Of a DNA stretch of 33,534 nt, positions 30,901 to 33,534 are shown piece by piece (position 1 is the stretch's first letter; each line of letters begins with the position of its first letter). The DNA comes from a virus, in IMG/VR virus record IMGVR_UViG_3300031576_000219, positions 1 to 33,534 of that record; one strand, given 5' to 3'. The position numbers and the translations under genes are program-made. Below the pieces are notes generated by a model that was not told where the DNA came from, ran no database searches, and saw only the letters and a list, made by a program, of their open reading frames with translations.

Positions 30901-31617
30901 ATGCCCTCTTCCGACAACGCCAGTGGCGTCGGTTCGGTGTCCCCGTTCGACTGGATCCGGCAGGTCCGCGCGATCCCGGCCAACACGCTGCCATTGGCCG
31001 ATCGGATGGTTCTGCTGATCTTGGCCTCTCACGCCGACGGTACCGGCACCTGTTACCCCGGCGTGCCGCTCCTCGCGGAGGAGTGCGGGATGAGTGAACG
31101 TGGCGTCCAGAAAGCACTCGCACGACTTCGTGCCACGGGCTGGATCGTCCATCGCGGGCGCGGGCCCCGTGGGGTGAACGTGGTTCACCTGAACATGGTC
31201 CGGGGTGAACGTGGTTCACCCCGGGGGGTGAACGTGGTTCGTCCAGGGGGTGAACGTGGTTCACCCAAAGAGTACAGGAAGAGTCCAGAGGAAGAGTCCA
31301 TCTCCCCCCCTACCCCCCTCCGGGGGGAGGATGAGAGTCCTCGCGTGAGGTCCATGGCCGCCAGGATCGCCCGCGCCTGTGCGGACTGGCGACCAGATCC
31401 GGGCGGGCTTCCCGGACCCGACACGCCGGAGACGCGGAATGCTCTGCGCGAGACGGCGGAGTTCCTCGCCGCCACGAGGCATCCGAAGCTCTTCCTGGAC
31501 CCCGATGTCGCGGGCAGCATCCGTCATTGGAGTGCCTGGCTACAACATGGGCGACAGCGTGACGTCGCTGCAGCCATGCGACTCGCACAGCGATTCGTCG
31601 CCGCAGATCGGAGGTGA
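30901..31617 (+). CDS. Replication initiator with HTH domain
   Basis: A 238-residue protein starting at ATG 30901 behind GGATGGAG. Residues 15-95 form a helix-turn-helix or winged-helix domain (PFDWIRQVRAIPANTLPL, then Y-P-G-V-P-L-L-A-E-E-C-G-M-S-E-R-G-V-Q-K-A-L-A-R-L, then GWIVHRGRGPRG), the usual DNA-binding part of phage initiators. The middle (about 90-125) is encoded by a set of palindromic repeats and reads as a low-complexity Gly-Val-Asn-Val-Val linker. The C-terminal 90 residues are helical. The plan of DNA-binding domain followed by iterons inside the gene is that of phage lambda O-like initiators. It ends in a GTGA with the resolvase frame. No helicase gene is seen. Confidence 0.7.
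   Translation: MPSSDNASGVGSVSPFDWIRQVRAIPANTLPLADRMVLLILASHADGTGTCYPGVPLLAEECGMSERGVQKALARLRATGWIVHRGRGPRGVNVVHLNMVRGERGSPRGVNVVRPGGERGSPKEYRKSPEEESISPPTPLRGEDESPRVRSMAARIARACADWRPDPGGLPGPDTPETRNALRETAEFLAATRHPKLFLDPDVAGSIRHWSAWLQHGRQRDVAAAMRLAQRFVAADRR
31173..31265 (+). repeat. Palindromic iteron array, putative origin
   Basis: The unit GGTGAACGTGGTTCACC is a perfect palindrome (GGTGAAC / GTG / GTTCACC). Full copies stand at 31173-31189, 31204-31220 and 31249-31265. A copy with two changes stands at 31227-31243, and a degenerate half-copy lies near 31188-31202. Spacing of the good copies is 31, 23 and 22 bases. Just downstream are two copies of GGAAGAGTCCA (31277 and 31290) and a C/G hairpin (31313-31327). 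This is the makeup of a replication origin bound by the protein encoded by the same gene. The repeats do not keep one reading frame, so they are selected as DNA, not as protein. Confidence 0.75.
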
Positions 31618-31619
31618 AC

Positions 31620-32237
31620 ATGATCGGACAGGATCTTTGGTTTGTGGGCGTAGATCCCGGTCACGTCAGCGGAGCGATCGCGATGGTCACGGCGAGCGGG
31701 CCCCAGGGCGGTCCCCGCCCGGCCGCCTGGGCATGCTGGCATCGTCACGGCGCGAACCGATGGCGAGTTCGATGGTCTTTGGAGATTGTCGGCGAGCGCG
31801 ACAGCCTGCACGGGGCCATTCGCTCGGCTCGGGAGATCGTTCTGAAGCGCCCGATCGCCGCTGTCGCCGTCGAGGGCATGTTCATCCCCCGCGACCAGAT
31901 GCGCATCAACCAACATCTGATCCGGCTGTACGAGGCGGCGGGGATGGCCCTGGCGCTCTTCGACACGCCCCCGAGCAGACCAACCGCAACGGAGTGGCGA
32001 CGCATGATCCTCGGGCTGTCGGCGGGAACCTGCGCTCGGGAGGCAGAGCGTGCCGCCGTCCTGTGGGCGGCGCGCATCTTCGGGCCGCTGCCCGAGTCGT
32101 TCGTGAAGGTCGAGCGAGGCGCTGTCAGCGAGGCGCTCGCCATCGCTGAGTACGCGCGCGTCAGCTCCACCTGGGATGCGAAGCTGGCACGCGCGGCCCG
32201 CCGTCCTACACCCCGATCGCGGCGAGGTAGTGGCTGA
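31620..32237 (+). CDS. RuvC-like Holliday junction resolvase
   Basis: A 205-residue RNase H-fold nuclease. ATG 31620 has GGAGG five bases upstream; GTG 31614 in the GTGA overlap is less likely because the ribosome site would overlap it. Motifs: V-G-V-D-P-G with D12, VAVEGMFIP with E85, and SEALAIAEYAR with E171, where most relatives have Asp. It would cut Holliday junctions and branched DNA during recombination or before packaging. The final 30 residues are basic. It ends inside the convergent gene on the other strand (32-base overlap). Confidence 0.75.
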   Translation: MIGQDLWFVGVDPGHVSGAIAMVTASGPQGGPRPAAWACWHRHGANRWRVRWSLEIVGERDSLHGAIRSAREIVLKRPIAAVAVEGMFIPRDQMRINQHLIRLYEAAGMALALFDTPPSRPTATEWRRMILGLSAGTCAREAERAAVLWAARIFGPLPESFVKVERGAVSEALAIAEYARVSSTWDAKLARAARRPTPRSRRGSG

Positions 32238-32988: not shown

Positions 32989-33071
32989 TTATGGTACTCG
33001 GCCTGCCAGCGGCAGACCTGCTCCAGCGTCCCGGTGTAGGCGCCCTTCACGGAGTGGACGGTGTGGGTCAT
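32877..33071 (-). CDS. MTHTV protein, copy 1
   Basis: A 64-residue frame whose first 26 residues (MTHTVHSVKGAYTGTLEQV...) are identical to those of the second copy at 33404-33487. The 127-base repeat ends at residue 26; beyond it this copy reads on into Pro/Ala/Arg-rich sequence that overlaps the 57-residue zinc-knuckle gene in another frame. The shared part is real. The tail may be a chance continuation created where the two copies diverge. Confidence 0.4.
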   Translation of the reverse strand: MTHTVHSVKGAYTGTLEQVCRWQAEYHKWPAPIPDPVASSGVPPAMRRTASGPRARQRAGIASP

Positions 33072-33118
33072 TGGTCATCATGATGTTTCCTGGTTGTCGC
33101 GCCAGAAGTCTGGCGGGA
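32992..33118. repeat. 127-base direct repeat, copy 1
   Basis: Identical to 33408-33534 over its full length. It holds the start of the MTHTV gene and the end of the 109-residue gene. The left edge of the match is sharp (A at 32991 versus T at 33407); the right edge is only the end of the window. Confidence 0.95.
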
Positions 33119-33407: not shown

Positions 33408-33487
33408 TGGTACTCGGCCTGCCAGCGGCAGACCTGCTCCAGCGTCCCGGTGTAGGCGCCCTTCACGGAGTGGACGGTGTGGGTCAT
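33404..33487 (-). CDS. MTHTV protein, copy 2, 27 residues
   Basis: The second copy of the MTHTV peptide (27 residues), ending in an ATGA overlap with the 109-residue gene. The 127-base repeat covers its start and ends before its last two codons. In this copy the frame closes neatly at the next gene's start, so it is more likely to be the intact arrangement than copy 1. Confidence 0.5.
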   Translation of the reverse strand: MTHTVHSVKGAYTGTLEQVCRWQAEYQ

Positions 33488-33534
33488 TGGTCATCATGAT
33501 GTTTCCTGGTTGTCGCGCCAGAAGTCTGGCGGGA
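33408..33534. repeat. 127-base direct repeat, copy 2, at window end
   Basis: Second copy of the repeat, running exactly to the last base. 127 is a common largest word length of de Bruijn assemblers, so the sequence probably stopped because its last word had already been used inside the same contig. The start of the window does not match, so this is not a closed circle. Confidence 0.95.
33494..33534 (-). CDS. C-terminal end of a second 109-residue-type gene (partial)
   Basis: The last 41 bases of the window, read leftward, encode P-P-D-F-W-R-D-N-Q-E-T-S and a stop, identical to the end of the 109-residue gene at 33078. So a related gene lies to the right of the window and is cut off here. It supports a tandem duplication of this gene pair. 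Confidence 0.5.
   Translation of the reverse strand, partial: PPDFWRDNQETS

Follow-up and report, generated by a model that had tools for sequence, protein, structure and literature searches.

The window analysed here is the whole of a linear 33.5-kb IMG/VR virus record (33,534 bases, 68% GC), which has a phage terminase-like gene by PHROG profile match and derives from an uncultured tailed phage. The record is likely incomplete at its 33,534 end, where a perfect 127-bp direct repeat (32992-33118 and 33408-33534, the second copy being the record end) is probably an assembly-graph overlap (k=127) rather than biology. One of its genes (Table 1) encodes a protein that matches HTH_36 (PF13730) at 9e-15, with 54.7 bits against a curated cut-off of 25, and the PHROG replication-initiation families phrog_1032 (2e-16), phrog_270 (3e-14) and the O-like phrog_391 (5e-12), as expected of an HTH_36 phage replication initiator. 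Among Pfam profiles only HTH_36 clears its cut-off; Phage_rep_O (PF04492), which lambda O itself matches at 6e-36, is not matched. A profile comparison of the HTH_36 family with lambda O was not significant, and the family connects to lambda O via intermediate PHROGs. Searching with the window protein alone returned a single distant viral relative, a query taken from a contig of a human-gut phage returned none, a sequence search of solved structures with the initiator gave no match, and a fold search gave generic winged helices only, all above E=0.02.

In an AF2 model of the initiator, residues 15-97 form a confidently predicted winged helix (recognition helix 66-78) and residues from about 103 to 144 a disordered linker; the C-terminal helices that follow are of moderate confidence and probably contact protein. 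The neighbouring gene (31614-32237) overlaps the initiator stop and carries RuvC/RNase-H-like motifs (GVDPG, AVEG) by eye. It has no Pfam, PHROG or PDB sequence match, helicase-loader families included, so that no equivalent of lambda P is recognised beside the initiator.

Just after the DNA-binding domain, inside the initiator gene, stands a group of 17-base palindromes which an earlier note on this DNA had proposed as a replication origin. Its description of three perfect copies and one with two mismatches proved exact at 31173-31265, as did the range of 22-31 bases given for their spacing (31, 23 and 22 from start to start) and the degenerate half-copy between them. Across the 33,534-base record GGTGAACGTGGTTCACC is absent outside this interval, with 7 matches over both strands compared with 0.12 in shuffles. 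The copies were also said to fall in different reading frames, and they do so by alternating between two of the three: those at 31173 and 31227 share one frame (peptide VNVVH/VNVVR), and those at 31204 and 31249 another (GERGSP). An equally good palindrome family arose in 1 of 2,000 synonymous-codon shuffles, in which the protein is kept, and in 0 of 1,000 codon shuffles, which argues that the palindromes are not a peptide by-product. GC skew across the window has no clean switch at the putative origin and is uninformative.

On one side the palindromes adjoin a purine-rich segment, modest in its A+T content yet within the lowest 0.9% of the record's 40-mers by GC. The direct repeat previously reported here is real, with a length of 12 nt rather than 11 and starts at 31276 and 31289. 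The tight hairpin at 31313-31327 (CCCCCC-TCC-GGGGGG) is likewise present, and a second C-run, CCCCCCC-TA, lies upstream of it at 31304-31312. Given that the stability of the hairpin is not unusual against dinucleotide shuffles (z about -1), the case for it rests on recurrence and position. Palindromes, purine-rich segment and hairpin together start where the winged helix ends and cover most of the disordered linker; since most of this DNA encodes a disordered stretch, it could be kept as DNA in different reading frames.

Table 1. Features of the initiator gene and of the putative origin within it
Feature	Position	Strand	Basis or remark
Replication initiator gene	30901..31617	+	238 aa: winged helix, disordered linker, C-terminal helices
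HTH_36 winged-helix DNA-binding domain, residues 29-82	30985..31146	+	Pfam; AF2 pLDDT >90 over most
Recognition residues S65 E66 R67 G68 V69 Q70 K71	31093..31113	+	Covariation, AF2 model
Iteron 1, perfect GGTGAACGTGGTTCACC (GGTGAAC-GTG-GTTCACC)	31173..31189		Exact match
Degenerate half-iteron TGAAC-ATG-GTCC	31190..31201		By eye
Iteron 2, perfect GGTGAACGTGGTTCACC	31204..31220		Exact match
Iteron 3, two mismatches in right arm	31227..31243		Pattern match
Iteron 4, perfect GGTGAACGTGGTTCACC	31249..31265		Exact match
Putative DNA-unwinding segment	31266..31305		50% GC in 68% GC record; purine-rich
Direct repeat AGGAAGAGTCCA, 12 nt, at 31276-31287 and 31289-31300	31276..31300		Inside unwinding segment
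Hairpin element C7-TA-C6-TCC-G6	31304..31327	+	Either C-run can pair with the single G-run
C-terminal helical region, residues 147-237	31339..31611	+	AF2 model, moderate confidence

We evaluated the recurrence of the palindrome by searching DNA blind for pairs of GTGAACNNNGTTCAC within 5-35 bases, using a scrambled palindrome of the same design as a control. Pairs were found in 42 viral contigs and the scrambled palindrome in 0. In 26 of the 42 the repeats lie in or directly behind a winged-helix initiator gene, in various frames, and the proteins concerned are down to 16-20% identical with the window's; the remaining matches are 15 collagen-like coding repeats from two phage families and 1 outside any long gene. 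A 25-member initiator set (viral, some from bacterial genomes, plus the window's) contained 21 matches to phrog_391 (O-like) and 18 to HTH_36. At one locus (L055, 900-1424) the initiator stops just before the iterons and the repeats remain untranslated, with an A+T-rich stretch behind, which is a natural uncoupling of the DNA from the protein.

The word GTGAACNNNGTTCAC alone was rejected as a diagnostic, both because most pairs in bacterial chromosomes lie elsewhere, those inspected often beside TetR-type genes, and because collagen-like coding repeats also produce it. Pairs in actinobacterial chromosomes (L062-L122, e.g. L072, L089, L098, L111), several of them by TetR-like or efflux-like genes, are probably operators unrelated to replication. 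The collagen-like proteins (L026-L059, 15 contigs, two phage families) yield the same word by coding for GEQGSQG/GDQGNQG repeats.

Relatives chosen by protein motif only comprised 80 viral loci, 78 of them with enough sequence behind the domain. At least two copies of a locus's own palindrome stand behind the domain in 73% of these 78 and at least three in 45%, compared with 9.5% and 0.4% in synonymous shuffles of the same loci, 2.3% and 0% in codon shuffles, and 12.5% and 0.9% in non-overlapping neighbour genes; the helix-turn-helix coding DNA of these loci never held two or more copies. Over 272 genes from viruses and three bacterial phyla the corresponding figures are 70% and 46%. The earlier note had suggested looking for the repeats in homologues and named, as evidence against an origin, relatives that keep the protein and lose the palindromes. 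The opposite is seen, in that the palindromes persist while the encoded peptide varies.

The commonest spacing in relatives is 22 bp (21-24), then 17 and 39-45, and among 124 arrays of at least three copies there are 113 in which the dyad coincides with a base. Successive copies take all frame relations (138/106/78 by spacing modulo 3). Most named phages examined have the same layout with different words, including Morganella IME1369_02, Burkholderia KS9 and Thermus Cumys, and also Psychrobacter Y8A, Shigella SfIV and Parageobacillus JGon-2020a. Judged from these sequences, the origin layout is general among relatives. Across 24 close relatives the synonymous difference is 0.16 in iteron codons compared with 0.33 elsewhere (0.37 over the helix-turn-helix and 0.30 over the C-terminal part). 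It is also low, at 0.15, in the linker between the iterons that lies outside their arms, which suggests that the constraint spans the whole origin.

Iteron sequences vary widely across relatives and covary with the recognition helix. In 56 non-redundant genes (<70% domain identity) with half-sites registered on the dyad, the top mutual information falls on the exposed recognition-helix columns 44, 45, 46, 47, 49 and 50 (z 4-10), the buried column 48 between them has z 2.5 and nearly all other columns lie below the helix, although non-contact columns 12, 21, 28 and 33 sometimes reach z 4-6; all z values are from permutation and ignore phylogeny. The covariation persists when only genes not chosen by DNA pattern are used. 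Among such unselected genes, all 32 with Arg at column 46 (helix position 3) have G at position 5, compared with 3 of the 12 that lack this Arg (p=3e-7). All 12 with Arg at column 50 have C at position 3, where other residues mostly go with A, and 11 of the 14 with Arg/Lys at column 49 have G at position 6, where Ile/Met go with T.

The window positions that covary most with iteron bases are R67, Q70 and K71. Unselected genes that share the window's Arg have G5 in 37 of 38, those that share its Lys have A3 in 11 of 11, and those that share its Gln have T6 or C6 in 16 of 16 called; the window's iteron has G5, A3 and T6, as its S-E-R-G-V-Q-K residues predict. In a nearest-neighbour test limited to pairs of genes no more than 55% alike, the half-site bases are predicted correctly from contact residues in 73% of cases and from other domain residues in 49%, where guessing the commonest base gives 49-79% by position. 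That initiators and the words within their genes change together makes it very probable that the protein reads those words. A survey or recognition code of this kind was not found in the literature covered, which leaves most subscription papers outside, and a residue-to-base code linking initiators to the iterons of their own genes looks new as far as checked.

The A+T-rich segment recurs with the palindromes. In 63 non-redundant arrays, a set that takes in some DNA-selected loci, the 40 nt past the last iteron average 40% GC compared with 56% gene-wide. The dip lies 3' of the last iteron in 59 of the 63 (p=6e-11), is confined to that side and has a sharp end at about 40 nt. Short direct repeats occur in the unwinding segment of 19 of 63 relatives compared with 2 of 59 control stretches.

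Of 62 arrays, 24 have a stem of at least 6 bp behind the A+T-rich segment, compared with 8 that have one further downstream (p=0.002). A DNA-only search for the window's own hairpin design (C5+TA C6 loop G6) gave at least 119 viral stretches, of which 80 were taken, and in 58 of these the hairpin lies inside open frames of suitable size. Among the matches listed for the 58 frames, with overlap, are phrog_270 (27), phrog_678 (20) and phrog_9474 (19), and from Pfam HTH_36 (11), DUF1376 (7), DUF6291 (2), Phage_rep_O (1) and others; the Phage_rep_O locus (L452) has lambda-like CCCTC..GAGGG iterons. The motif starts in all three frames (32/22/4 among the matches listed) and is on the coding strand wherever tested (17 vs 0 and 8 vs 0); the 40 nt that precede it are lower in GC by 15 and 22 points. 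The 398 Pseudomonadota genomes contain the hairpin twice, both times in prophage-type initiator genes, and a reversed control pattern 9 times. Matches in Actinomycetota are confined to a single genome (G240, L521-L532), where a repeat of the form CCCCCTAGCCCCCC-TTGTCA-GGGGGG is dispersed in 12 copies.

Hairpins of the form CCCCCTA-CCCCCC-loop-GGGGGG were observed in initiator genes of unrelated families (L400-L479), on average behind an A+T-rich segment. The earlier note had given the hairpin a minor place; it is the part of the origin with the widest and least expected distribution, and a hairpin common to the origins of unrelated initiators looks new as far as checked. We see an even chance that this C-run/TA/C-run/loop/G-run hairpin is a shared functional element of phage origins, at the far edge of the unwinding segment and used by unrelated initiators (HTH_36, DUF1376, lambda O), acting as structured single-stranded DNA read by a common host factor or helicase-loading step. 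If so, two C-runs competing for one G-run would allow a switchable hairpin or triplex. As to its function, our guess is that it signals where helicase loading or priming takes place.

We compared the locus with known systems, using lambda O as a positive control. The same detector recovered the annotated lambda iterons at 39034, 39054 and 39078, the fourth being beyond its mismatch limit; iteron 4 is followed by 45 nt at 24% GC and then by an inverted repeat at about 39162. The inverted repeats of lambda are bound by O dimers and followed by 40 bp of A+T-rich DNA (reviews; PMC5043065), and a lambdoid plasmid no longer replicates once its iterons are altered with the O protein sequence left intact (PMC7466680). 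By analogy, other phages have been proposed to carry their origin within the initiator gene (PMC7157519, PMC7924643). The architecture is already known, and the window would have a lambda-type origin with a non-lambda initiator.

The earlier comparison with lambda's placement of its origin inside gene O is borne out, with iterons, A+T-rich segment and inverted repeat all in the initiator gene. Lambda and the Stx phages have four palindromic iterons of 17-19 bp, 20-24 bp apart (17 bp in the window, with one longer spacing of 31), and about 40 bp of A+T-rich DNA on the 3' side before the inverted repeat. Each unit is indeed a full palindrome; what the earlier note offered as a departure from many plasmid iterons is also a likeness to lambda. 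In contrast to lambda and Stx phages, the window has an HTH_36 rather than a Phage_rep_O initiator, an iteron unrelated to TCCCTC..GAGGGA, a degenerate half-site in its 31-bp spacing, a hairpin of the C-run/G-run type and no recognised P-like neighbour. Initiators of phrog_391, phrog_1032 and phrog_270 (Shigella SfIV gp41, Burkholderia KS9 gp46, Thermus Cumys gp50) share the winged-helix domain with their own palindromes directly behind it, but each has an iteron sequence of its own, which follows the recognition helix, and the window's C-terminal part matches none of them. HTH_36 Rep proteins with iteron-like repeats are also reported from Paracoccus plasmids (PMC3832669), and the passages covered of that source describe no in-gene position such as that of the window's repeats.

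Protein family, recurrence, covariation, A+T dip and reduced synonymous change support reading the locus as an origin within its initiator gene. From the sequence we consider it highly probable that this tailed phage has a lambda-type replication origin lying within its initiator gene, whose product would bind the repeats as dimers and open the A+T-rich stretch. We infer that each of the four 17-bp palindromes would be occupied by one winged-helix dimer whose recognition helices sit in the GGTGAAC half-sites. Counted from the dyad, R67 would lie on the G at 5, with K71 opposite the A at 3 and Q70 opposite the T at 6. With sites mostly about two helical turns apart, the dimers could assemble into a nucleoprotein complex and open the 40-nt A+T-rich stretch next to them (31266-31305). 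The hairpin would lie at the outer limit of the opened region and probably sets where on the exposed strand the helicase is loaded or priming occurs.

It is improbable that the palindromes are instead operators by which the winged-helix protein, or another regulator, represses the gene with no role in replication. This palindrome is also found next to TetR-type regulator genes on actinobacterial chromosomes and so can be an operator word, and the domain fold resembles MarR/ArsR-type repressors. However, the sites lie some 270 nt inside the gene, past the DNA-binding domain and not at a promoter; there are four of them at regular spacing, with the A+T-rich dip and hairpin on one side only, and the families matched are replication-initiation families.

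An origin of the iteron-plasmid type (RepA/RepE-like), with initiator monomers on direct repeats, would share with the window its repeats about 22 bp apart beside an A+T-rich segment and its winged-helix DNA binding, and the initiator has weak fold similarity to RepE and RepA-type winged helices. We judge it slightly less credible still. The repeats of iteron plasmids (RepA, RepE, pi) are non-palindromic, monomer-bound and in an origin usually outside rep, whereas iterons of that kind do not form the window's array, where every unit is fully palindromic about an odd dyad, like those of the great majority of relatives with at least three copies, and the covariation table fits two symmetric half-sites. 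Hardly any credence remains for repeats that are a by-product of a repeated linker peptide, with selection on the protein. Such an effect does account for the GEQGSQG coding repeats that make up 15 of the 42 viral matches, but in the window the copies lie in different frames with unrelated peptides and in relatives their spacing is spread over all three values modulo 3. Furthermore, synonymous shuffles of the same protein lose the palindromes, L055 retains them behind a stop codon, and the linker is disordered in the AF2 model.

Phage origins are rarely known beyond a few models. The lambda-type reading offers a rule for other phage genomes, in which a winged-helix initiator gives recognition residues, these give predicted iterons, and an A+T-rich stretch and hairpin would be sought behind them. 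The residue-to-base table (Arg at helix position 3 with G5, Arg at position 7 with C3, Arg/Lys at position 6 with G6) is testable by single mutations, and a hairpin common to unrelated initiators raises the question of its role in helicase loading or priming.
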